From contig NZ_VFQC01000001.1 of NCBI RefSeq assembly GCF_006717075.1, positions 2,527,501 through 2,591,500 on the forward strand: a stretch of DNA of 64,000 nucleotides. Reading direction: 5' to 3'. The position numbers and the translations under genes are program-made. Positions within the stretch are counted from its first letter, which is position 1, and each line of letters begins with the position of its first letter. The notes beneath the pieces were generated by a model that saw only the letters and a list, made by a program, of their open reading frames with translations, made no database searches and had not been told where the DNA came from. This document shows positions 36,740 through 49,796 of the stretch, in pieces. The DNA is from Haloactinospora alba (GTDB lineage Bacteria; Actinomycetota; Actinomycetes; Streptosporangiales; Streptosporangiaceae).

Positions 36740-38110
36740 TCACGGTTCGTACAGTGAGGGCGGATGACCGCTCTTCTGGAGCTCCTCCCCGCCGCCGGAA
36801 CGCTGCCCGGGGATCGTCGAGGGCCCGGTCACCGGCAGGCACACCCGGTTGCGGCCGTTGTCCTTCGCGCGGTACACGGCCAGGTCGGCCGCGGCGAGCA
36901 GACCCACCAGATCCTGGCCGTGCACGCTGAGCAGCGCCACCCCCACCGAGATGGTGACCGACACGCCGCTGTCCCCGGCGCGCATCCCCATCCTCCCCAC
37001 CCGCGAGCGGAGGCGCTCTGCGGCACGGCAGGCCTCGGCCGTGTCGGCTCCGGGGAGCAGGGCCACGAACTCCTCCCCGCCGAACCGGCCGAGCGTGTCG
37101 GAGGAACGCAGCTGGTGGGTGAGCGTACTGGCCACGCTGAGCAGGACATGGTCGCCGAACAGGTGACCGTAGGTGTCGTTCACCCGTTTGAAGTGGTCGA
37201 TGTCGATGATCAGCACGGCGGCCGAGCGCTGGTCCTGCACGGCACGGGACAGTTCCGCCTCGGCCACGTACTCCCATGTCGCGGCGTTGAGCAGTCCCGT
37301 CTTCGGGTCGGTGCGCGCGGCGGTCTGCAGCTGTTGGAACAGCAGGCTGCGCTGCAGCAGCAGGACCGGTGGCAGGGCGATGAGGAGGAACAGCGCCGAC
37401 AGCGCGGACAGGATCGCGACGGTGATGCCGACACACAGTTCCACCCCGTCGATCATCACCGCCTCCCTGTCCCACAACAGCCGGTTCCACGAGGAGTGCA
37501 CGGCGCTCACGTGCACGGCGACCGCCATGATCCCGGTGTTCAGCACGGTGAACACGGCGCAGCACAGCAGCGCCAGGAGCACGCCGGGACCGTCCACGAG
37601 CGACGTCGCCACGCTCTGCTGGGAGAGGACGAGGGCGGGGTACAGACCGTCGGCGAGGACCGCGTGGAACAGGAGCGAGGAGACGAACCCGGAGAGAGCG
37701 ACGGAGGCCGCGTTGAACACCCTGCGGTGCACGACGGTGCGCCGGATACGGAGCTGCAGCAGCACGTACACCGGGATGGGGACCAGCAGCGAGTACATCG
37801 GAGGCAACAGGAGCACCGTGGGGAACCACCAGGCGCCGAGGAGGTCGCGGGTCAGCCCGGACGGGGGTCCCAGCCGGCGCATCGCCTCCACGCACAGTCC
37901 GGCTCCCAGCACCAGCGCGGCGAACGTGGTGATCTCCTCGGTCCGGACCGGGGTGACGGTCGCCGCCGCCGCGAGGAGCAGCACGACACCCCCGATCGCC
38001 GCGCCCACGAAGCAGATCAGCAGGCGCGACTGGTTGAACAGCGGCCAGCGCCGCAGCCAACATATCCATGGACGTTCACGGTCAGTCACGGGACATTGCG
38101 TCACCGCCAC
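36740..38110 (-). CDS. membrane-bound GGDEF diguanylate cyclase
   Basis: Makes cyclic di-GMP from two GTP, 456 aa. The N-terminal ~270 residues hold about eight hydrophobic helices (MASE-like sensor region) and the C-terminal GGDEF domain has the active-site GGEEF. RSSD lies exactly five residues before it, an intact inhibitory I-site (RxxD). No EAL domain. The start is GTG 38110 with a GGGGGC-type site. In actinobacteria c-di-GMP controls development; no other c-di-GMP gene is in the window. Confidence 0.88.
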   Translation of the reverse strand: MAVTQCPVTDRERPWICWLRRWPLFNQSRLLICFVGAAIGGVVLLLAAAATVTPVRTEEITTFAALVLGAGLCVEAMRRLGPPSGLTRDLLGAWWFPTVLLLPPMYSLLVPIPVYVLLQLRIRRTVVHRRVFNAASVALSGFVSSLLFHAVLADGLYPALVLSQQSVATSLVDGPGVLLALLCCAVFTVLNTGIMAVAVHVSAVHSSWNRLLWDREAVMIDGVELCVGITVAILSALSALFLLIALPPVLLLQRSLLFQQLQTAARTDPKTGLLNAATWEYVAEAELSRAVQDQRSAAVLIIDIDHFKRVNDTYGHLFGDHVLLSVASTLTHQLRSSDTLGRFGGEEFVALLPGADTAEACRAAERLRSRVGRMGMRAGDSGVSVTISVGVALLSVHGQDLVGLLAAADLAVYRAKDNGRNRVCLPVTGPSTIPGQRSGGGEELQKSGHPPSLYEP

Positions 38111-38490
38111 GTCGATCGCCCCCGCTCACACCCAGCATCTCGGTTGGATCACATTCAGTAATAGTTTAATCGCTAATTGTGTAGGGGTGGGGGTAAACCG
38201 CTACATTGAGGCTGGGGTCGATCCGTCCGGGACGGCCGAATCCGGCGCGCCGGAGAGACGGTCCGGCAGCGCAGACAGGGGAACAGTGCGGTGGCCGCGA
38301 TCGGGACCGGCGGGGATGTCCTCCCAGACGCAGCCACCACCGTCCGCGATGAGTGGGAGGTTATATGTCCTCTGGTATCCAGTGGGTGTGACGAGCTCGT
38401 GCGCCTCCGGGGAGGGTGCGCCTTCCCGGAGGCCCGGGAACGGCGGGAGGAACGCAGGTCCCGAATCCCCCGCGCAGCGGTTGCCCGCGG
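38111..38490. other. 380-bp intergenic region before the GTPase pair stop
   Basis: Lies between the start of the GGDEF gene and the end of the GTPase operon. Its right half carries a terminator hairpin (38403-38433); its left part (38140-38200) is A/T-rich and likely holds the GGDEF promoter. No credible gene seen on either strand. Confidence 0.4.
38403..38433 (-). terminator. terminator of the cobA-GTPase operon
   Basis: A 13-bp stem with one wobble (38403-38415 with 38421-38433) and a 5-nt loop starts 58 nt past the stop of the second GTPase gene. Confidence 0.65.
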
Positions 38491-40875
38491 CTACGTGCGC
38501 TTCGCCAACGCCGTTTCGAGAGCACTCGTGAATTCCCGGTAGCGCCCCAACTCGGCCTCCACCGGAGCGACGACCCGGTCCTCGGCGAGCGCCCGTACGT
38601 TCTCGGCACTGGTGCGCTCCGTGTACTCACGTTTCTGCGCGGCCGAGACCGAGACGATGTTCTGGCACCCGATGCCGATGAGCCATCCGACCGCCAGCGC
38701 CGCCGCCACGATGGCAACCGCGAAACCCACGAATACTGGATTGTCCAAAAAAGCGACGCCAGTGAAACCGCCGCCGACCCAGCTCGCGACCAGCAACGCG
38801 GACCACGCCAGTGCGCCGCCGCCGCAGACGACCAGCAGCTGCTGGAGTACGCGCACGATCCGCCACCACACCGGCGGTTCCTGCCGCTGTGGCAGCGCCC
38901 GCGCCACCGCGGCCCCCAACTCCGCGGGCAGGTCACCGCTGCTGTCCCGCGCCGCCGCGCGGACGCGCGCCGGCCACGGAGCGGGAAGCTCGGCACAGCT
39001 CTGGTCGGCGAACCCGAGGGTGGCGGACTCCACCTGGGACTCGTTCGCCTCCGCGAAGGAGGTCGGCGTGTCGTCGGGAGCCTCCCGCAGGAACCCCAAC
39101 TGGGCTGACCTCAGCGGGTCGCGACGCAGGTAGCGCAGCCAGCGCGCGACCGGCCACCCCACGTGCCGCCGCCCGTTGCGTTCGTGGACGGTCTCCACCG
39201 ACTCCGCGACAGCGGACGCTCCCGTGGCTTCCAGCAGGGCTGCGGACAACCGTTCCCGGGAACCGGCGGGCACCTCCGCCACGGCCTGCGCGTCACGGTA
39301 CTGGGTGAACTCGGCGGCGACCCGGTCCAGGTCGGCCGCCAACCGGTCGATCAGGGCGCGGCGCTGGATGACCGTGTCCCGCAGCAGTTCCCGCAGCTCC
39401 CCGCCCCCCTGGCCGGTCAGCGTGGACGTGGTGAGCACCCGGGGCTGGGCCCCCGACTCGGTCTCCAGCAGCCGCCGCAGGTCGGTCAGGAGTTCTTCCA
39501 GCTCGTCCGGGTCGACCCGGTCAACCTGGTTCAGCACGGCGACGGTGACCGCGCCGTAGCCGGACATCTCCGCGAGGTAGCGGTGGTGCACCGCGGCGTC
39601 GGCGTACTTCTGCGGGTCGAGGACCCACACCAACAGGTCGACGGAGCCGATCAGCCGGTCGGACTCCGCCACGTGCACCGCCCGGACCGAGTCGTGGTCG
39701 GGCAGGTCCAGCAGGATCAGCCCGGCCAGGTCCGGTTCCGCGTCGTCCAGCTCGCTGGTTCGGGAGCGCCGGTTGCGCTGTGGCACACCGAGCCAGTCGA
39801 GGAGCTCGTGCGCTCCCTCCGTCCCCCAGACGCAGGCGTGGGCGGCCGACGTCGTCGGCCGGGTGATCCCGGTCCGGGAGAACTCGAGCTCGCACAACGC
39901 GTTGAACAGCGAGGACTTTCCGCTTCCGGTACCGCCCGCCAGGGCGACGACCGTGTGTTCCCCGGAGAGGCGCAGGCGGGCGCCGGCGTGGTCCAGAAGG
40001 TGGCGCGCGCTCTCCACCGTCTCGGAGGCGAAATCCTCCCGTCCGAGCTCGACCATGGTGGCCACCGCGTCCAGGCGGGTCATCAGTTCGGCACGCATCG
40101 CGTCCGTCAGGGGGGTCCGGCTCCCGGACTCCTCCCGCGGGTGCTCGTCCGTCTCCGGCTCGGGTGGCACGGCCGCGGATGCGGCGGGCGGGGCCGGTGG
40201 CTCGTCAGGCTCGCGGGCCCGTTCCCCGGATTCCTCAACGGCGGGACTGCCGTCCTCCACGGGGGCGCTGCGTTCCTCCCCGCTCTCTGGCGGCTGGGCG
40301 GCGCCCGCCTCGGGAGCGGGTTCGTACGCCGGCGGTGAGGTGCCCGCGCTGTTCCTGCGCCCGGCGATCACGGCGCTGTCGTCGACCGCGTCGACCAGGC
40401 TGCCCACCCAGCCGGCGAGATCGTCCGGATCGTCGGTGTCGTCCGAGTCCGCGGCCGGAGCGTGCGAGGGCGGCGCCGCGCTGTCGCGCCGGCCGGACTC
40501 GTCGTTGCCCTCCCGGTCCCCGGCGGGCTCGGCTTCCGTGCCGTTCACCTCGTGGTGCGGCGAACCGCTGTCGGGTTCGGCAGTGCCGTCCGACGCGGTG
40601 GCTCCGGGGGCGGGGTCCTCGGCGGTAGGCTCCGCCGGGCTCTCCCCGGTCCGGGGGAGCCAGCCCGCGTCCATCCGAGCGGTCCTGGGCAGGACGTAGC
40701 CGCGCCATCCCGCACCCGTGTTCGCAGTAGCGTCCATGCCGGGGTCGGACGTGGGAGCGCCGTTGGTTTCGGCCTCCGGTGCCGGTTCCGGGGTCCCGTC
40801 GCGCTCCGGCGGCGTAGCCGACGGTGCCCCGTCCGGTTCCTGCTCAGCATGAGCGGGATTCCGCTGAGTTGTCAT
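38491..40875 (-). CDS. dynamin-like (YfjP/DynB-type) membrane GTPase
   Basis: Protein of 794 aa. The first ~255 residues are disordered and Glu/Pro/Ala/Ser-rich. The G domain follows with G1 AGGTGSGKSS (312-321), G2 RPTT, G3 DLPDHDS and G4 NQVD. Two close hydrophobic helices (~690-745) near the C terminus form a membrane hairpin, the layout of bacterial dynamin-like proteins such as Streptomyces DynB. ATG 40875 overlaps the stop of the preceding GTPase (ATGA), so the pair is translationally coupled. Membrane remodelling is inferred from the fold; the exact role is unknown. Confidence 0.78.
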   Translation of the reverse strand: MTTQRNPAHAEQEPDGAPSATPPERDGTPEPAPEAETNGAPTSDPGMDATANTGAGWRGYVLPRTARMDAGWLPRTGESPAEPTAEDPAPGATASDGTAEPDSGSPHHEVNGTEAEPAGDREGNDESGRRDSAAPPSHAPAADSDDTDDPDDLAGWVGSLVDAVDDSAVIAGRRNSAGTSPPAYEPAPEAGAAQPPESGEERSAPVEDGSPAVEESGERAREPDEPPAPPAASAAVPPEPETDEHPREESGSRTPLTDAMRAELMTRLDAVATMVELGREDFASETVESARHLLDHAGARLRLSGEHTVVALAGGTGSGKSSLFNALCELEFSRTGITRPTTSAAHACVWGTEGAHELLDWLGVPQRNRRSRTSELDDAEPDLAGLILLDLPDHDSVRAVHVAESDRLIGSVDLLVWVLDPQKYADAAVHHRYLAEMSGYGAVTVAVLNQVDRVDPDELEELLTDLRRLLETESGAQPRVLTTSTLTGQGGGELRELLRDTVIQRRALIDRLAADLDRVAAEFTQYRDAQAVAEVPAGSRERLSAALLEATGASAVAESVETVHERNGRRHVGWPVARWLRYLRRDPLRSAQLGFLREAPDDTPTSFAEANESQVESATLGFADQSCAELPAPWPARVRAAARDSSGDLPAELGAAVARALPQRQEPPVWWRIVRVLQQLLVVCGGGALAWSALLVASWVGGGFTGVAFLDNPVFVGFAVAIVAAALAVGWLIGIGCQNIVSVSAAQKREYTERTSAENVRALAEDRVVAPVEAELGRYREFTSALETALAKRT

Positions 40876-42716
40876 CGCGCAATCTCAAGGTTGTACGTCG
40901 CTTGGTAGAGCTGGACGGCGTCGTCCTCGCCCGGGATCCTGGCGGCAGCCAGCGCCTCCGTGAAACGGCTCCGCTCCTCGTACAGCAGAGTGCCGATCCG
41001 CCGCAGCAGGTCCTCCCGCGCCATCGCGTCAATGTTACGCAGCGATTCGGCCCCGAACAGTCCGCGCAACAGCCGCTGCGGCGACGGTGTCGTCCGTCCC
41101 AGCGACTCCTGCACCGCCTCGTAGCCCAGCAGCTGGACCATGAGGACCAGAGTGAACGCGTTCTGGTCGAACGACACGAAGCGGGCCACCGAGCGCTTGG
41201 CCGCTCCGTCCGCGGAGACCATCTCCGTGACGCGTTTCTGCCATTCTGCCACTGCCCGGCGCACACGCTCGGAGAAGTCGGCGGCCACCGTGTCGCACGA
41301 GAAGCGTTCCACCAGTTGCCTTCCCCCGGCAACAGTATCCCACTGGCGGATGACTTCCTCCCCCGCGCGTTCGGCCACCGCGACGACCAGCGCCTCGAGG
41401 CTGTCCCGGATCGCCTCCTGCAGCGCGGCCACCCGCGGGTCCTCGGTCTGCTCGTCGGCGCCGGGGGACCTGCGTTTGCCGCGCGTGCGCAGCGTACGGG
41501 CGAGTACACCGCTCGCGGCGATGTCCTGCCAGCGGGCGAGGAGGGTGCCGCGCAGCAACGAACCGTCGTTGACCGCGGCGTCGGCGTTGCTGAGCGCTGT
41601 GGTGAAGGCGTCCTGTGCCGCGGAGTCGAGGGTCTGCCCCGCTTCCACCTGGGTCTCGACCTGTTTGGCCAGTTCCGGTACGCGGCTGCGGAAACTCTCG
41701 ATCACACCGCGGAAGGTCCGCCGCGTCACCCGGTCCCGCTGGGCGAGTTCCCCCGTGACGTCGGCCAGGTAGTCACGGATGGCGTCCGCGGTGTTGGCGG
41801 TGAACCGCTCGCCCCGGATCTGGTCGGTCTCGGGGATGGCGAACCGGGCGGTGTTCCCCAGCCCGTTGGCTTCCAGCATCGCGTTGAAATGCTCGAGTAG
41901 CTGGCCGCGCCCCCGTTCCGGGACCCGGGACAACACCACCCCCAGTGAGGTGTTCCGGTCGCGTGCCACCTGGAGGAACTCCCACACCCGGGCGTCCGCG
42001 TACCTGCGGCTGGTCGTCACGAACAGCCACAGGTCCGCCGTGTCCAGGAACGTGGCGGCGAACTCGTGGTGGGCCGCCACGGCGGAGTCGACGTCCGGGG
42101 TGTCCAGTACGGCGATGCCCTGGGGCATGCACTCGCTGGGGGCCAGCACGAGCATGCCGTCCTTGCCGGGCATCGCCAGTCCCTGCTGACGCACCCGCGG
42201 GAAGGTGGGCAGGAAGAACGTCTCGCTGAACCAGTCCATGTCGGCGGGGTTGCACGCGAGGACGGGGCTGTTCGTCGTCGGCCTGCGCACCCCGGTCGTG
42301 GTGACCTGTTCCCCGACGAGGCTGTTGACGAGAGTGGACTTTCCCGCGCCGGTGGAACCGGCGACGGCGATCAGCAACGGTGTGTCGGGATTGCGGACCC
42401 GGGGCAGCACGTAGTCGTCCAGCTGGTGCAGGATGTCGTTGCGTGCCGTACGCCCCTCCTCCGCACCGGGAAGACCGTCGGCGAACTCGACGCTTCGCAC
42501 CCGTTCCCGCAGGGCGTCCAGGACCTGTTCGAACCGCTGCTCGCCGGAGTCCGCCCGGTAGCGCGCCCCGTCGGAGTCCGCGAACGATCCCGTCGAGGAG
42601 CGGGCACGCTCGTGCCGCCCCGGTCCGGTTCCCGAGGCGGGAAGATCCTCACCCGAGACTCCGTCACCGCCCTCGTGGTTCCCCGTCACTTCCGGCGTGG
42701 CAGGCGGCCGGGACAT
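40872..42716 (-). CDS. dynamin-like GTPase, partner of the membrane GTPase
   Basis: Protein of 614 aa with a G domain: G1 AGSTGAGKST (~119-128), G2 RPTT, G3 DTPDVDS. A normal G4 NKxD is not seen; the expected strand reads VVLSRVPERG. The rest is long helical sequence without a clear membrane segment. ATG 42716 has GGCGGAAG upstream; GTG 42752 overlaps the cobA stop (GTGA) and is a possible earlier start. The gene ends in an ATGA overlap with the next GTPase. Two G domains of this kind, one soluble and one membrane-bound, suggest a heteromeric machine. Function unknown. Confidence 0.75.
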   Translation of the reverse strand: MSRPPATPEVTGNHEGGDGVSGEDLPASGTGPGRHERARSSTGSFADSDGARYRADSGEQRFEQVLDALRERVRSVEFADGLPGAEEGRTARNDILHQLDDYVLPRVRNPDTPLLIAVAGSTGAGKSTLVNSLVGEQVTTTGVRRPTTNSPVLACNPADMDWFSETFFLPTFPRVRQQGLAMPGKDGMLVLAPSECMPQGIAVLDTPDVDSAVAAHHEFAATFLDTADLWLFVTTSRRYADARVWEFLQVARDRNTSLGVVLSRVPERGRGQLLEHFNAMLEANGLGNTARFAIPETDQIRGERFTANTADAIRDYLADVTGELAQRDRVTRRTFRGVIESFRSRVPELAKQVETQVEAGQTLDSAAQDAFTTALSNADAAVNDGSLLRGTLLARWQDIAASGVLARTLRTRGKRRSPGADEQTEDPRVAALQEAIRDSLEALVVAVAERAGEEVIRQWDTVAGGRQLVERFSCDTVAADFSERVRRAVAEWQKRVTEMVSADGAAKRSVARFVSFDQNAFTLVLMVQLLGYEAVQESLGRTTPSPQRLLRGLFGAESLRNIDAMAREDLLRRIGTLLYEERSRFTEALAAARIPGEDDAVQLYQATYNLEIAR

Positions 42717-42748
42717 AGCGCTTCCGCCCTTCCTCTCGGTCGTTCTGA

Positions 42749-44056
42749 TCACAAAACCCGGTTCTCCCCCAGGGCTGTACCGCCGGTGGTCACGTCCCCA
42801 GCCGACGTGTTCGTTCCTCCCCGCCCCTCCTGGAGCATGCCGAGCTCCGTGGCTACGTTTACCACGTCTCCGACGATAACGACGGCCGGCGGCCTGACCT
42901 CAGCCTCGTTCATCACCTGCTGGGCCGTCGCCAGCGTCGCTGTCACCGTACGTTGTGTGGGCAGCGTAGCGTCCTGCACCGCCGCGACGGGTGTCTGCGG
43001 GTCGCGCCCGTGCTCGACCAGGGTCGCGGCGATCGCGCCGACATGGCGCACCCCCATGAGCGCCACGATGGTTCCGGTGGAACGGCCCAACCCTTCCCAG
43101 TCGATGGTGGAACGCTCGTCGTCGGGGGCCACGTGCGCCGAGACGACGTGCACGTCCTGCGTCACACCGCGGTGCGTCGGCGGGATCCCCGCGCTGGCGG
43201 GCGCGGCGAGGGCGCTGGTCACACCGGGGACGACGGTCACCGGGACGCCGGCGGCGGCGCAGGCGGCCGCCTCCTCCCCGCCCCGGCCGAAGACGAAGGA
43301 GTCGCCGCCCTTGAGGCGCACGGCGAACTTACCGGATCGAGCGCGCTCGATCAGTACGCGGTTGATGTCCTCCTGGGTCATCGAACGGCCGTAGGGGATC
43401 TTCGCGGCGTCGATGATCTCCACGTCGGCCGGCAGGTGGTCGAGCAGGGAGGTCGGCGCGAGCCGGTCCACCACCACCACGTCAGCCTGGGAGAGCAGTT
43501 GCCGGCCGCGCACGGTGATGAGGCCGGGGTCCCCGGGACCGCCCCCCACCAGGGCCACGCCCCGCAGCGGTTCGCGGCCGCGCCGTGCGTCCAGGAGGCC
43601 GTCGGCGAGACCGTCGGTGATCGTGTCCCGCAGTCCGGCGGCACGGCGCGGATCCCCGTCGGCGACCACCCCCACGGTGACTCCGGAGGCACTTCCGCTC
43701 GCTGGCGTCCACGCGCTGGAGGCGTGCCGGTCGTCCGCCCGCACGCACCACAGGTGAGCCTCCTCGGCTTCCTGGGCGACGGCGGCGTTGATCTCCGGGT
43801 GGTCGGTCGCCACGTGTACCAGCCAGAAATCGCCGAGCTCGCGTCCGCGGACGTCGCCCTCCGCGAACGCCCGCCGGTGCCAGGTGATGCGCCCGGCGTC
43901 GGCGAGTCCCTCCAGTGTCGCTGTGACCTCGGGAGCGATGAGCGTGACGTGGGCTCCCGACTCCAGCAGCATGGGCACCCGGCGCTGGGCGACCCGCCCA
44001 CCGCCGACGACGAGGACATCCCTCCCCTGTAGGCGCAAACCGAGAAGATACGTCAC
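42749..44056 (-). CDS. cobA: uroporphyrinogen-III C-methyltransferase fused to precorrin-2 dehydrogenase domain
   Basis: Two-domain enzyme of 435 aa that makes precorrin-2, the entry to the corrin ring, and can lead to sirohydrochlorin. The N-terminal Rossmann domain (VLVVGGGRVAQRR, ~15-27) is the CysG/Met8 dehydrogenase type; the C-terminal SAM-dependent methylase carries VALVGGGPGDPGLITVRG, YGRSMTQ, RLKGGDSFVFGRGGEE and VVPGVTSA. GTG 44056 has GGAGG 9 nt upstream. Longer readings add non-conserved residues and cross the hairpin. It begins the downstream unit of operon A and is coupled to the GTPase pair through a GTGA overlap. Confidence 0.9.
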   Translation of the reverse strand: MTYLLGLRLQGRDVLVVGGGRVAQRRVPMLLESGAHVTLIAPEVTATLEGLADAGRITWHRRAFAEGDVRGRELGDFWLVHVATDHPEINAAVAQEAEEAHLWCVRADDRHASSAWTPASGSASGVTVGVVADGDPRRAAGLRDTITDGLADGLLDARRGREPLRGVALVGGGPGDPGLITVRGRQLLSQADVVVVDRLAPTSLLDHLPADVEIIDAAKIPYGRSMTQEDINRVLIERARSGKFAVRLKGGDSFVFGRGGEEAAACAAAGVPVTVVPGVTSALAAPASAGIPPTHRGVTQDVHVVSAHVAPDDERSTIDWEGLGRSTGTIVALMGVRHVGAIAATLVEHGRDPQTPVAAVQDATLPTQRTVTATLATAQQVMNEAEVRPPAVVIVGDVVNVATELGMLQEGRGGTNTSAGDVTTGGTALGENRVL

Positions 44057-44100
44057 CGAGCCTGTCCTCCAGATCCCTGTGAGTGGCCCCGCGCCGGAAT

Positions 44101-44139
44101 CCGCGGCCGCCGGACCGGGAACTCCCGGTGCGGCCGCGG
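44101..44139. other. strong hairpin between bluB/cobT and cobA
   Basis: CCGCGGCCGC (44101-44110) pairs perfectly with GCGGCCGCGG (44130-44139), and an inner CCGGG/CCCGG stem extends it. It lies in the 229-bp gap before cobA, 45 nt upstream of its start. No T-run and no B12 box are seen, so it is not a riboswitch. Partial terminator, attenuator or RNA-processing site are all possible. Confidence 0.6.
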
Positions 44140-44285
44140 CCGGCGACGGCCCACGTTGGTCGTGCGCTCCCGCCCCTCGGTCACGAGGGAAGGGGCACCC
44201 CTGACTGAGAAAATACCGTGTCAAACCGGAACGCGCTCGTGTTATGCCGCATAACCGTACGGTTTCCGGACTTTCGAACCGTGTG

Positions 44286-46325
44286 TCAGCCGGACTCCGG
44301 ACCACTGTCGCGTTCCGCCACCCCGGCGGAGTCGAACGTCGCGACGTCCCGCAGCGCCCGCACCGCGCTCTGCACGAGAGGAAGCGCCAGCAGCGCACCG
44401 GACCCCTCCCCCACGCGCAGGTCGAGGTCGACCATCGGACGCAGCCCGAGGTGGTCCAGGGCCGTGGCGTGTCCGGGCTCGGTCGACCGGTGTCCCGCGA
44501 TACACGCGTGTGTGACCTGCGGCTCCAGTGCCGCGGCCGCCAGCGCCGCCGCTCCCGCGATCACTCCGTCCAGCAGTACCGGAACCCGCAACGCGGCGGC
44601 ACCCACGATGAAGCCGGCGAGGGCGGCGTGTTCCAGACCGCCCACAGCCGCCAGGGTCCCCACCGGATCGGACGGGTCGGTCCTGTTGACTGCCAGCGCC
44701 CTGCGCACGACGCCGGTCTTGTGTTCCTGGACGCTCGGGTCCACACCGGTCCCGCTCCCCGTGATACCGGCCGGGTCCGCCCCGGTGAAGGCGGACACGA
44801 GGGCCGCCGAGGAGGTGGTGTTGGCTATTCCCATGTCCCCGGTGAGCAGGCAGCGGTTCCCCGCGGAGACGAGGTCGCGTGCGACCTCCACCCCGGCCTC
44901 GAGCGCGCTGTTGGCCTGCGACCGGGTCATCGCCGGCCCCTGGGAGATGTCCGCCGTCCCCCGGGCAACCTTGCGTGGCAACAGTCCCGGAACCGAGGGC
45001 AGGTCGCCCGCGACCCCCACGTCCACGACGGTGACCTCGGCACCGGCCTGGGCGGCGAACGCGTTGACCACCGCACCCTCGTCGAGGAAGTTCCGCACCA
45101 TCTGGGCGGTGACGTCCTGGGGCCAGTCGGTAACCCCCTGGGCGTGCACCCCGTGGTCGCCGGCGAACACCGCGACCGCCGCCGGTTCGGGGATCGGCGG
45201 CGGGCACTCGCCCGCGAGCCCGCACAACTGGGTCGCGACGTCCTCCAGCACCCCCAGGGAGCCCGGTGGTTTGGTCATCCGCGACTGCCGCTGCGCGGCC
45301 GCGGCGGCCGCGGCCTGGTCGGGGGGGCCGATGGCGGCGATCGTCTCCTCCAGCAGGCTCGTCGGTTCCTCGCCGGGAAGTCCGCGCTTGCCGTAGCTCT
45401 CCCGGTGCACGGCCCACGACAGCGGCCGTCGTTGCGCCCATCCCCCCATGGCGAGCTCGGGCTCCGGAGCGAACCGTTCGACGTAGCCCACGCACAGGTA
45501 GGCCACGACCTCCAGATGATCCGGGAGGTCAAGGGTGTGGGCGAGGTCGCGCTCCGCGAAGAAGCTCACCCATCCCACACCGAGCCCCTCGGCCCGCGCC
45601 GCCAACCACAGGTTCTGCACGGCCAGCGCCGTGGAGTACACGCCGGTCTGGGGCTGCACGTGCCTGCCGAGAGTGTGCTTGCCGCCCCGGGTCCGGTCGG
45701 CGGTCACCGCTATGTTGAGAGGGGTCTCCAGGATCGCCTCGATCTTGAGGTTGGAGAACGCGCGGGCCCGGGCCCCCGGAAGGTCGCGCGCGTAGGCGTC
45801 GCTCTGCTCCGCGGCGAGTTCCCGCACCCGGGAACGCACCTCCCGGTCCTGGATGAGGACGAAGTCCCACGGTTGGGAGAAACCCACCGACGGCGCACGG
45901 TGGGCCGCGCTGAGCACGCGGGTCAGCACGTCGTCGGGAACCGGGTCGGGACGGAACCCCGAGCGCACGTCACGGCGCTGCCGGATGGCGCGGTAGACCG
46001 CCTCGCGCTCGGCCTCGGTGTAGGCGTTCGGGTCGACCTCCCCCTCAGGGACCGCCTCCGCCGAGGGGCGGGGGGCGGGATCCGGCCGGTGTTCCTCCTC
46101 GGGGGGCCCCTCCGTGTCATGGTCCCCGCCGACCACGGGGGCGGGCTCCGTCGGCTCCGCCGGCGCGGCCGGGGTCTCCTGCGGGGGCGCGGCGCCGCGG
46201 CCGGGCTCGGGCAACCCCTCCAGCAGACCTCCGGCCGGGGACGCGCGGCCGCCGGAACCCGCCGCGGTCCCCTCGGTGTCGGCGGGTGCGCCGCCGCGGT
46301 GCTGTCCGCGTCCGTTGGCGGTCAT
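44286..46325 (-). CDS. cobT: BluB-CobT fusion: DMB synthase and nicotinate-nucleotide DMB phosphoribosyltransferase
   Basis: Protein of 679 aa with three parts. Residues 1-~100 are disordered and Pro/Glu-rich. Residues ~100-320 form a flavin-destructase BluB domain (AYTEAEREAVYRAIRQRRDVR, APSVGFSQPWDF) that makes 5,6-dimethylbenzimidazole. The C-terminal CobT domain attaches it to ribose phosphate; the catalytic Glu is in RVGEGSGA, with GDMGIANTTSSAAL and GSGTGVD loops. The fusion makes and uses the lower ligand in one polypeptide. ATG 46325 overlaps the cobC stop (ATGA) and has GGGGGGTG upstream. Confidence 0.9.
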   Translation of the reverse strand: MTANGRGQHRGGAPADTEGTAAGSGGRASPAGGLLEGLPEPGRGAAPPQETPAAPAEPTEPAPVVGGDHDTEGPPEEEHRPDPAPRPSAEAVPEGEVDPNAYTEAEREAVYRAIRQRRDVRSGFRPDPVPDDVLTRVLSAAHRAPSVGFSQPWDFVLIQDREVRSRVRELAAEQSDAYARDLPGARARAFSNLKIEAILETPLNIAVTADRTRGGKHTLGRHVQPQTGVYSTALAVQNLWLAARAEGLGVGWVSFFAERDLAHTLDLPDHLEVVAYLCVGYVERFAPEPELAMGGWAQRRPLSWAVHRESYGKRGLPGEEPTSLLEETIAAIGPPDQAAAAAAAQRQSRMTKPPGSLGVLEDVATQLCGLAGECPPPIPEPAAVAVFAGDHGVHAQGVTDWPQDVTAQMVRNFLDEGAVVNAFAAQAGAEVTVVDVGVAGDLPSVPGLLPRKVARGTADISQGPAMTRSQANSALEAGVEVARDLVSAGNRCLLTGDMGIANTTSSAALVSAFTGADPAGITGSGTGVDPSVQEHKTGVVRRALAVNRTDPSDPVGTLAAVGGLEHAALAGFIVGAAALRVPVLLDGVIAGAAALAAAALEPQVTHACIAGHRSTEPGHATALDHLGLRPMVDLDLRVGEGSGALLALPLVQSAVRALRDVATFDSAGVAERDSGPESG

Positions 46326-47419
46326 GCGCACCCCCCAAGTTCGCGTGTGGCTGCGTTCAACACGTTGTCTCCCTCATCGTCGTGGAGCAGGTGCGCCAGC
46401 GTCCGCACGAGCCGCCGGGAGCTCTCCTGGTCCCGGACGGCGACACGCGACCACTGCGGCCCCAGGCCGGGGAACGTGTCCCCGCGCCGCACGGCGATCC
46501 CGTTCTCGCGCAGCCGGTGGCGGAGCACCTCCCCTTCCGGGGACCGGACCAGCAGGAACGACGCCGCGGCACGGGGGGTGACCTCCAGACCGAGCTTCGC
46601 CAGTGCCCGGGCGAGAGCCGCGCGTCGCACCGCGAGCTCCCGGGCCCACGCGTCGGCCTCGGCGACGGCCTCCGGGGCGCAGCACGCTTCCGTCGCCACC
46701 AGCGCGGGAGTGGAAACCGACCACAGGGGCTGGAGGTCTGCCATCCGCCGCACCAGTTCCGGAGGGGCCAGTACGTAGCCGGCGCGCAACCCGGCGAGAC
46801 CCCACGTCTTGGTGAGGCTGCGCACCACGACGAGGCCCGGGAGGTCGCCACGACCGGCAAGGGACTCCGGTTCACCTGCCACACAGTCGGCGAAGGCCTC
46901 GTCGACCACCAGCGTCCGTCCCGGACGGGACAGCTCGGCCAGGGTCGCGGCCGGGTGCAGCACCGAGGTGGGGTTGGTGGGGTTTCCCACCATGACCAGA
47001 TCGGCGTCGGCCGGGACGTCCTCCGGGTCCAGCACGAAGTCGGGCGGCAGCACCACCCGCTCCACCTGGTGTCCGGCGGCGGTCAGCGCCGCCTCCGGCT
47101 CGGTGAACTGGGGGTGGACCACGACCGGCCGCCGCGGTCGTGACACGCGCGCCAGCAGCACGAACGCCTCGGCGGCCCCCGCGGTCAGCAGGACCTCCTC
47201 CGGAGGGCGGCGGTGGCGGGACGCGACCGCGGCGCGGGCAGCGGTCGCGTCCGGGTAGGCCGCCAACCCGGCGACGGAGTCGCGGAGCCGCTGGGCCAGC
47301 CACGGGGGCGGGGTACCGCCGCGCACGTTGACGGCGAAGTCCGACAGGCCGGGCCCGGTCTCGGCGTCACCGTGGTGGCGCAGGTCCGGCTCGTGTTGCT
47401 CCGGCACCTCAGTGTCCAT
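46322..47419 (-). CDS. cobC: CobC/CobD-type PLP-dependent aminotransferase (threonine-phosphate decarboxylase-like)
   Basis: Fold-type I PLP enzyme of 365 aa. The Schiff-base lysine is in VVRSLTKTWGLAGLRAGY, with NPTNPTS and VVDEAFADC for phosphate and ring contacts. In cobalamin synthesis this class supplies aminopropanol phosphate for the nucleotide loop; the histidinol-phosphate aminotransferase family is the alternative, but the context favours the former. ATG 47419 lies inside the end of cbiX (11-nt overlap), in the codons for its histidine-rich tail. It ends in an ATGA overlap with bluB/cobT. Confidence 0.85.
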   Translation of the reverse strand: MDTEVPEQHEPDLRHHGDAETGPGLSDFAVNVRGGTPPPWLAQRLRDSVAGLAAYPDATAARAAVASRHRRPPEEVLLTAGAAEAFVLLARVSRPRRPVVVHPQFTEPEAALTAAGHQVERVVLPPDFVLDPEDVPADADLVMVGNPTNPTSVLHPAATLAELSRPGRTLVVDEAFADCVAGEPESLAGRGDLPGLVVVRSLTKTWGLAGLRAGYVLAPPELVRRMADLQPLWSVSTPALVATEACCAPEAVAEADAWARELAVRRAALARALAKLGLEVTPRAAASFLLVRSPEGEVLRHRLRENGIAVRRGDTFPGLGPQWSRVAVRDQESSRRLVRTLAHLLHDDEGDNVLNAATRELGGCA

Positions 47420-48329
47420 GACCGTGCCCGTGACCGTGTCCGTGCCCGTGGGCGGGGTCGTCGGGATGGTGGTGGGGGGTCTGCGGCTCGCCGACCTTGC
47501 TCTCGAACCCGGGGAACGCCGCACGGTACACGCAGGTGTCGCAGTTCATCCGGATGTCTCCGGCGAGAGCCTCGTCGTAGCGTTCCACGATCATGTCGGC
47601 CAGCTCGTCGCAGTCACCGATCACGGGAGCGCACCGGATGTCCATGTCGGTGTGCTGCGTCGCGAACTCCACCGACTGGTCCACCACGCGGTCCGGCAGG
47701 ATCCCGGAGAACAGGAAGTACGGCAGCACTACCACCCGACGCGTCCCGAGCCGGCGCAGCCGCTCCAGCCCCTCGGGCACGCTCGGCCAGGCGAGCGAGA
47801 TGAACGCGGGCTCGACGGAGGCGATCCCGCGCTGTTTGGCGTGGCCCTCCTGGAACAACCGCGCCACCTTGCACACCTCGGCGTTGGCGTCCGGGTCGGT
47901 GGATCCCCGACCGACCAGCAGAACCGCGGTGTCGCCGGACTCGGCGAGGTCGTCGGCAGAGGCGTCCAGCACCTCGTCCAGGCGCTGCGCCAGCAGGCCG
48001 AGCATCGTGCGGTGGGGCCCCAGCGGACGCCCATAGGCGTAGCTGAACCCCTCGTGGCGTTCCTTCTCCCGGGCCAGCGCGCCCGGGATGTCGCCCTTGG
48101 CGTGCCCAGCCGCCACCAGCATCATCGGCACCGCCACCACCCGGCGGTGCCCGTTGCGGTACAACTCCTCGACCGCGTCGGTGAGCGGGGGCGGGGAGAG
48201 CTCGATAAAGCCGCCGGCGACCTCGCGGTCGTCGAGCCGGCGGGACAGCCGGTCGACGAACGCCGTGAAGTCGGACACGCCCTTGTCGTCGCGGGTTCCG
48301 TGTCCGACCAGCAGCAACGGGGGTTTCAT
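47409..48329 (-). CDS. cbiX: sirohydrochlorin cobaltochelatase CbiX with metal-binding tail
   Basis: Inserts Co2+ into sirohydrochlorin, the defining step of the cobalt-early route, 306 aa. It is the long, two-domain CbiX: N-domain GHGTRDDKG and AAGHAKGDIP, C-domain GRGSTDPDAN and SGILPDRV. Near the C terminus MNCDTC is the MxCxxC iron-sulfur motif known from long CbiX, followed by a tail of alternating Gly and His (GHGHGHGHGHGH). ATG 48329 has AAAGGACACC upstream. The histidine tail probably stores or delivers cobalt. The start of cobC is nested in it. Confidence 0.9.
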   Translation of the reverse strand: MKPPLLLVGHGTRDDKGVSDFTAFVDRLSRRLDDREVAGGFIELSPPPLTDAVEELYRNGHRRVVAVPMMLVAAGHAKGDIPGALAREKERHEGFSYAYGRPLGPHRTMLGLLAQRLDEVLDASADDLAESGDTAVLLVGRGSTDPDANAEVCKVARLFQEGHAKQRGIASVEPAFISLAWPSVPEGLERLRRLGTRRVVVLPYFLFSGILPDRVVDQSVEFATQHTDMDIRCAPVIGDCDELADMIVERYDEALAGDIRMNCDTCVYRAAFPGFESKVGEPQTPHHHPDDPAHGHGHGHGHGHGH

Positions 48330-48346
48330 GGTGTCCTTTCTGGGGT

Positions 48347-48934
48347 TCATGGGGTGGGGCCGTACAGCAGGGCGTTCACCGCGGCCGCCGCCACGGCCGA
48401 GCCCCCTTTCTCCGAGGTGTTACTGACCTGCGGAAGGCCACTGTCACGCAGCGCCTGTTTGGACTCGGCCGCACCGACGAAACCGACGGGAAGGCCGATG
48501 ACCAGTGCGGGGTCGACCTGGTGGGCGATGATCTCCTCCAGCGCCGTGGGGGCGCACCCGACCGCCCAGACCGCTCCCGGCCCGACCTCGGCGTGGGCCG
48601 TGCGGACCGCGGCGGCCGAGCGGGTGATCCCGGCGTCCCGGGCCAGCCGGGCCGCCCGCGGGTCGGAGATGTGGCAGACGCAGGAACGCGCCGTGACACC
48701 GGAAGCCACCATCGCGACGTCGGTCACGACCGGGGCCCCGTCCGCCAGCAGCGCACCGGCGCGCTCCACGGCTGTGTCGTCCATCACCAGGTCCCCGGCG
48801 TACTCCAGATCGGCAGTGGCGTGGATCACGCGTTCGGCGACCGCCCGGCTCAGGCGCGGCAGGTGCTCCAGATCGACCCGGGAACGCAGGATGCGGTAGG
48901 ACTCCACCTCGATCGGGTGGATGTTGCGGTTCAT
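48347..48934 (-). CDS. cobH: precorrin-8X methylmutase (CobH/CbiC)
   Basis: Moves a methyl group from C11 to C12 of the corrin ring, giving hydrogenobyrinic or cobyrinic acid, 195 aa. The catalytic His lies in RSCVCHISDPRAARLA and the substrate loop in LPVGFVGAAESKQAL. Normal length. ATG 48934 has GGGG about 12 nt upstream, a slightly long spacing. It leads operon A and lies 17 bp before cbiX. The 209-bp gap upstream, which also holds dispersed repeat copy B, separates it from the ferredoxin gene on the same strand. Confidence 0.92.
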   Translation of the reverse strand: MNRNIHPIEVESYRILRSRVDLEHLPRLSRAVAERVIHATADLEYAGDLVMDDTAVERAGALLADGAPVVTDVAMVASGVTARSCVCHISDPRAARLARDAGITRSAAAVRTAHAEVGPGAVWAVGCAPTALEEIIAHQVDPALVIGLPVGFVGAAESKQALRDSGLPQVSNTSEKGGSAVAAAAVNALLYGPTP

Positions 48935-49527: not shown

Positions 49528-49556
49528 TTGCGAAGTGCACGTATCGCACGTACCTT
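49528..49556 (+). promoter_or_regulatory. promoter of the cbiMNQO operon
   Basis: TTGCGA (49528-49533) and TACCTT (49551-49556) are separated by exactly 17 bp. Transcription would start near 49563, at the first base of the riboswitch P1 stem. The fit with the riboswitch start makes this convincing. Confidence 0.6.
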
Positions 49557-49561
49557 CGACA

Positions 49562-49754
49562 GGTCGTGGTGTTCGGGAAGTCCGGTGCGAAACCGGCGCG
49601 GCCCTCGCCACTGTGAACGGGAAGCTCGGCGCCCCGCTCCGCCGCTGCCAGCGGACGGAACGGAGAGGAGCCACTGGGGACGTCCCGCGGGACACGCCCT
49701 GGGAAGGCCGGCGGCGGGCGGTGTGACCCGCAAGCCAGGAGACCGGCCACGACC
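49562..49754 (+). ncRNA. cobalamin riboswitch
   Basis: The complete aptamer is visible. GGTCGTGG (49562-49569) and CCACGACC (49747-49754) form a perfect P1 stem. The core reads GGGAAGTCCGGTGCGAA at 49575-49591 and continues to GCCACTGTGA at 49607-49616. The B12 box CAAGCCAGGAGACCGGCC is at 49731-49748. The start codon of cbiM is 42 nt downstream, after GGAGAGGG, and GGCCGG at 49790-49795 could pair with the B12 box CCGGCC to close or open the ribosome binding site. Expected outcome: high B12 turns off cobalt import. Confidence 0.92.
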
Positions 49755-49796
49755 GCGCGATGACCGTCCACGAGGTGTTGGAGAGGGTCGGCCGGC

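Follow-up and report, generated by a model that had tools for sequence, protein, structure and literature searches.

We analyzed a stretch of 64,000 nucleotides of Haloactinospora alba (contig NZ_VFQC01000001.1), hereafter the window, whose positions serve as coordinates throughout. On its minus strand a cobA/cysG-type gene is followed by two genes for dynamin-like GTPases, dynA and dynB; the gene order is real, conserved and lineage-specific, and the proteins are of a known kind. It is likely that dynA and dynB are the actinobacterial DynA/DynB pair at its old locus, with a role in septation, and that cobA provides co-expression and not a biochemical link. DynA and DynB would assemble into a heterotypic, GTP-driven complex that a hairpin of DynB anchors in the membrane; the complex would stabilize the divisome and membrane in septation, a role reported in Streptomyces. 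Before the window's family and its sister family diverged, the tail of a cobalamin cluster (ending in cobT-cobA) would have come to stand immediately upstream of an older dynA-dynB-ssb-ettA block. The cobA-dynA junction would then have tightened to overlapping or near-overlapping start codons, and dynA is now probably translated behind cobA.

Three Overlapping Genes on the Minus Strand

The genes and the features that join them are as follows.

42749..44056, minus strand: cobA/cysG-type gene (CysG-like); PF13241 and PF00590, TIGR01469 at 275.8 bits against a cut-off of 185
40872..42752, minus strand: dynA, first dynamin-like GTPase; PF00350 (Dynamin_N) above the Pfam cut-off; GTG start, alternative ATG at 42716
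38491..40875, minus strand: dynB, second GTPase, homologous to dynA; G1 GGTGSGKS, G3 DLPDHDS, G4 NQVD
42749..42752, minus strand: GTGA overlap of the cobA stop and the dynA GTG (in-frame GTG at 42752–42750), from the sequence
40872..40875, minus strand: ATGA overlap of the dynA TGA and the dynB ATG, from the sequence; a 4-base overlap stands there in 45/63 pairs
38677..38838, minus strand: membrane hairpin of DynB, residues 680–733, from a Kyte-Doolittle scan

The three genes run head to tail, joined by the GTGA and then the ATGA overlap, both read directly from the sequence. The cobA product combines an NAD-binding, precorrin-2 dehydrogenase-like N-terminal domain with a uroporphyrinogen-III C-methyltransferase domain, and its frame closes with TGA; counted from the GTG, dynA has 626 codons. 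In profile searches DynB matched general GTPase models, with Dynamin_N only below the cut-off, and hhalign gave 99.7% for the homology of DynA and DynB, two adjacent homologous GTPase genes of which dynA is the first.

The Kyte-Doolittle scan placed two hydrophobic segments near the C-terminus of DynB (residues 680–698 and 715–733) and none in the DynA of the window. Exactly two segments were found in 53/64 DynB proteins and another number in 11, in a set that still includes locus L003, excluded from other counts below. The same simple scan gave one or two segments in 42/64 DynA proteins, so DynA should not be taken as soluble throughout the set. An initial annotation of the window had noted the overlap of the cobA TGA with an in-frame GTG at 42752, the ATGA overlap between the GTPase genes, a C-terminal membrane hairpin in one of them, and a likeness to paired bacterial dynamin-like proteins. 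Both overlaps are present, the hairpin belongs to DynB, and the pairing is supported by the DynA-DynB homology together with the fold matches described below.

Conservation of the cobA-dynA Junction

Genomes were compared in a class sample and in a sample of relatives. Within the window's family, adjacency was scored from match positions, as cobA upstream of dynA on the same strand within 2.2 kb; match distances reach 2.1 kb because the variable DynA N-terminus does not match. The genes were adjacent in 31/31 genomes of the family among those listed in the class sample, that of H. alba included, and in 31/36 of its relatives in the second sample. The exceptions were G023 and G028, where they were not adjacent, G014 and G018, where contig ends cut the region, and G034, which had no dynA match. 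Both samples merged, with seven shared genomes counted once, gave adjacency in 56/61 genomes of the family including the window, so a peculiarity of one genome was rejected. The single genome of the sister family showed the same order (1/1). In a third family of the order, cobA and dynA lay on separate contigs in all three genomes, and the neighborhood read there (L084) was without cobA.

Gene-by-gene reading covered 40 stretches from the window's family or its sister, L004, L005 and the window itself. We call the cobA-linked pair lineage of these two families type A (43 loci) and a second pair, carried by seven members of the window's family with larger genomes, type B. L003 was excluded from overlap, tree, motif and neighbor counts as it has the same gene order as L041 (G007), the short search loci L001, L002 and L006–L036 were left unused, and a scan of genome contigs yielded only three loci. 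Among the fetched type A loci, cobA stood immediately upstream of dynA in 40/43; another gene was found there in L004, L066 and L068, and the genomes of two of these three loci (G023 and G028) had a cobA match on another contig.

Outside the two families, no cobA was seen beside dynA in any of the 12 neighborhoods with upstream DNA (12/12), the thirteenth, L085, beginning at dynA. The nearest cobA-dynA distance outside the family was about 150 kb, judged by eye in 22 genomes with both genes on one contig. The comparison of gene order proposed in the initial annotation therefore upheld the adjacency among close relatives and did not carry it further, the Streptomyces-like loci L087 and L088 being without cobA like the other outside loci. 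Across the class, a dynA match (1e-30) was found in 142/296 genomes and a cobA match (1e-60) in 232/296, and at least four genomes (G047, G240, G310 and G318) had the former without the latter.

On the other side of cobA, cobT was the next gene upstream in 29/38 adjacent-cobA loci not cut by a contig end. In L053 cobA stays at dynA though a reversed gene stands upstream of cobA. In L048, L049, L050, L053, L059 and L061, cobT and cobA are parted by an arginase/agmatinase-like gene, recognized from its first residues by eye.

A Presumed Older Neighborhood of the Dynamin Pair

The dynamin pair has other recurrent neighbors. Of the 30 type A loci that do not belong to the window's clade, 23 have ssb as the next gene after dynB (reversed in one of them), the rest comprising four contig ends and three other genes; in the clade itself ssb holds this place in 0/13 loci. 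Outside the two families, ssb and/or ettA, identified there on examples, stand within four genes after dynB in 8/13 loci. Two genes of the window belong here.

36740..38089, minus strand: GGDEF protein gene, between dynB and ettA; PF00990
33804..35468, minus strand: ettA, presumed remnant of an older dynA-dynB-ssb-ettA block; NF008775 at 906.7 bits against a cut-off of 599

In the window ettA is kept, two genes further on from dynB, while ssb is gone from the block; the H. alba genome holds two SSB-family genes elsewhere. The GGDEF gene is next after dynB in 12/13 loci of the clade, the thirteenth stopping at a contig edge.

In an unrooted DynA tree of 63 rows, all 43 type A rows formed one group (100/99), and the seven type B rows formed a group (100/100) nested among the outside rows. 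None of the type B loci had ssb or ettA nearby (0/7). Five of the seven type B loci (L078–L081 and L083) have SPFH/band 7 and NfeD-like genes next to the pair, and in some the pair stands behind genes that, by eye, resemble a two-component system. The simplest history we infer is an ancestral dynA-dynB-ssb-ettA block that a cobalamin-cluster tail joined once, in the ancestor of the two families, with ssb later lost in the window's clade. If type A is the vertical lineage, type B would have been acquired or would be an old paralog.

Fold, GTPase Motifs and Known Systems

DynA has the fold class of the dynamin superfamily, judging from its AlphaFold model (4 sequences, pLDDT 71.9). The first rows of a Foldseek search with this model were dynamin-like proteins, among them Nostoc BDLP (2j69, E 2.0e-9) and Mycobacterium IniA (6j72, E 3.0e-9); against Fzo1 it gave Z 20.9 over 323 residues (rmsd 5.0), and it also matched the bacterial dynamin pair 5owv, Drp1 and mitofusins. 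The domain arrangement is tentative, because whole-chain TM-scores stayed low, between 0.20 and 0.53 among the rows shown under either normalization, apart from a few that were lower. The DynB model was weak (pLDDT 52.7, the long N-terminus mostly under 50), and its link to the superfamily runs through homology to DynA. Profile searches against solved structures matched other GTPases over short stretches, immunity-related GTPases and a septin among them, and no chain named as a dynamin. In single-sequence searches DynA reached IniA at E 0.051, and DynB matched no dynamin.

The P-loop is retained in both proteins. G3 is DxPDxDS whether or not the pair is linked to cobA, and in all rows but one of DynB; within it, DynA has T or S in 43/43 type A rows versus A in 20/20 others. 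The canonical G4 motif of the dynamin superfamily is (N/T)KxD. The DynA of the window has SRVP instead, and DRVP and QRVP were the commonest strings in other groups (best six strings per group); as the degenerate G4 is shared with outside pairs, it does not separate the window's pair from its kin. DynB has NQVD in the window and, on the same best-six basis, mostly NQxD elsewhere. This contrast between a degenerate DynA G4 and a mostly kept DynB NQxD suggests, at the level of sequence, that the two partners may use nucleotide unequally. Motifs peculiar to the cobA-linked pair were considered and rejected, the differences being small.

The closest known counterpart is the Streptomyces pair, likewise two adjacent dynamin-like genes with a two-segment DynB. 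In the portion of the source consulted, S. venezuelae DynA and DynB stabilize FtsZ rings in sporulation, DynB binds SepX, and Streptomyces DynB carries two membrane segments (PMC8748795). L087 and L088, which by our assignment would represent Streptomyces DynAB, resemble most type A loci in that ssb follows the pair, and differ in having no cobA upstream and 649 and 815 bases before dynA; L087 DynA is 33% identical to that of the window. An SsgA-family protein is encoded in the H. alba genome, which would be in keeping with a sporulating-type life cycle like that in which Streptomyces DynAB acts.

BDLP and IniA share the fold class of the DynA model, yet the Foldseek alignments show only 12–15% identity and whole-chain TM-scores of 0.22–0.28. 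Their genes presumably lie in operons different from that of the window. Campylobacter jejuni Cj-DLP1 and Cj-DLP2 are likewise encoded side by side and form a heterotypic complex; unlike the window's pair, their operon, as far as the consulted part of the source describes it, has no cobA, and their knock-out has no obvious division defect (PMC6104087). A literature search for dynamin with cobalamin, uroporphyrinogen-III, siroheme or gene neighborhood found no paper on a dynamin-cobA link, in agreement with the initial annotation, whose author knew of none between DynA/B-type proteins and B12 genes.

Start of dynA and Overlap at the Junction

A second start of dynA is possible within its frame.

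42724..42733, minus strand: Shine-Dalgarno-like GGAAGGGCGG before the in-frame ATG at 42716; ATG in 13/13 loci of the window's clade

In all 13 loci of the clade an in-frame ATG (in the window 36 bases past the GTG) stands behind the purine-rich GGAAGGGCGG or a variant of it, which we take to resemble the Shine-Dalgarno consensus. Starting at ATG 42716 would leave a gap of 32 bases after cobA. The GTGA overlap is possible in 8/13 of these loci; in L071 a stop codon rules out the GTG form and the ATG alone is possible. The longer form of DynA may also be made, because the codons between GTG and ATG differ among clade loci partly by synonymous changes (by eye).

Among the 40 loci with an adjacent cobA, the window included, 31 have an open overlapping dynA start. 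By our own mechanical and rough gene caller, a 4-base overlap stands at cobA-dynA in 22/40 loci versus 53/348 other co-directional neighbors in the same loci, counts that come from related and not independent genomes. Coupling by overlap is well supported for the family as a whole and less certain in the window's clade, where the 32-base gap is the alternative.

Limits of the Transcription Unit

Two hairpins flank the three genes.

44086..44155, minus strand: strong hairpin in the cobT-cobA gap, possible terminator; z -3.15 for 44057–44190, best 70 bases -52.3 kcal/mol
38401..38470, minus strand: GC hairpin after dynB without a U run, possible terminator; z -3.6 over the best 70 bases but just -1.26 over all 102 bases

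The best-70-base scan somewhat favors the real sequence, as the shuffles were stepped more coarsely. The cobT-cobA hairpin reached z -3.5 or lower in 6/13 clade members, among them the window, and was absent by that measure in seven. On sequence grounds it may separate cobA from the cobalamin genes that precede it, leaving a unit of cobA-dynA-dynB only. A terminator between cobA and dynA was rejected, the single consensus match (42757–42773) being fewer than the shuffle mean of 1.8. The consensus scan for terminators found none after dynB, and a promoter consensus scan of 37500–46500, which covers one promoter type only, found none either. The initial annotation had placed all these genes in one operon with a terminator behind it; cobA, dynA and dynB do share a strand and overlap, but a strong hairpin stands before cobA, and the expected terminator is represented only by the GC hairpin without a U run.

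The sole cobalamin riboswitch at the gathering threshold in the window (RF00174, 63.6 bits, 49550–49765) lies on the plus strand immediately ahead of cbiM and points away from the cobH-cbiX-cobC-cobT genes of the minus strand, and riboswitch control of cobA-dynA-dynB by B12 was rejected on this ground.

Weighing the Explanations

The initial annotation had suggested that the pair may act in a membrane step tied to the use of cobalamin or siroheme, with simply shared regulation as a fallback. In the first form, cobA-dynA-dynB would be a selected module whose dynamins serve a membrane step for corrin or siroheme supply or a B12-dependent process. The adjacency in 40/43 type A loci, the frequent overlap and the persistence of cobA at dynA where it is parted from cobT, as in L053, speak for it. 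Nevertheless, we regard it as highly improbable: all 12 readable outside neighborhoods lack cobA, L004, L066 and L068 persist without cobA at the junction (G023 and G028 carrying it on another contig), the motifs differ little, and the only riboswitch found is on the other strand. The presence of dynA did not track that of cobA across genomes, and the adjacency did not run through the whole range of the pair. The fallback is the better reading, given the pairs that stand away from cobA. The first committed enzyme of siroheme and corrin synthesis is the cobA product, and a narrower proposal is that selection maintains cobA-dynA-dynB as a unit in one lineage, where a common transcript and coupled translation would tie division or sporulation to tetrapyrrole or B12 status; this we consider improbable. 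Two further readings concern how the junction came to be kept. The dynAB genes may have no promoter of their own and rely on one upstream of or inside cobA, a refinement compatible with the septation pair co-expressed with cobA; it is quite possible, though we would not lean towards it. There is hardly any intergenic room between cobA and dynA, against 649 and 815 bases in the Streptomyces-like loci, and in the window a hairpin separates cobT and cobA. In S. venezuelae, according to the consulted part of the source, dynAB (vnz_12110/vnz_12105) is a BldC target and is repressed by BldC (PMC6428758). On the other hand, a promoter could lie within cobA, the scan that found no promoter addressed one type, and the hairpin is strong in fewer than half of the clade members. 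If this reading is true, septation proteins would be made whenever cobA is. A comparably tentative explanation is that the overlapping stop and start codons made separation costly and a chance neighborhood was kept without function; overlaps are indeed frequent at cobA-dynA, at dynA-dynB (45/63) and at cobH-cbiX (7/14), but 9/40 adjacent-cobA loci lack an open overlapping start and are still adjacent.

Several observations weigh against the reading that we prefer, a septation pair at its old locus joined by cobA. Neither ssb nor ettA is nearby in 5/13 outside loci, and the window's own block is without ssb. Type B nests among the outside pairs and the cobA-linked type A does not, so the Streptomyces pair may have its true counterpart in type B, and the Streptomyces-like rows L087 and L088 are long branches. 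The status of type A as the vertical counterpart rests on synteny and an assumed root, and this is the weakest point. The DynA motifs also differ slightly by group (G3 T/S versus A; G4 S versus D or Q). Finally, cobA-dynA is conserved no less than the pathway link cobT-cobA (40/43 versus 29/38), more than one would expect of a loose accident; the junction likely brings some benefit, most simply shared expression.

Neighboring Cobalamin Genes

The upstream cobalamin genes end in a fused gene.

44286..46331, minus strand: fused bluB-cobT, end of the upstream cobalamin genes; TIGR02476 and TIGR03160 above their cut-offs

BluB (DMB synthase) and CobT share one frame of 681 residues. In relatives the length of the cobT frame varies between about 340 and 890 residues, so only some clades may have the fusion. 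The CbiX-type chelatase (47409–48350, minus strand) has a histidine-rich C-terminal tail that is possibly metal-binding.

Significance

The dynamins are linked to ssb and ettA over a wider range than to cobA, and that linkage offers the better clue to DynAB function. A curious adjacency becomes a testable rearrangement, in which an apparently old neighborhood would have been joined to cobA family-wide. The prediction is that the septation dynamins of this lineage would be expressed from the cobA transcript, with altered developmental control.

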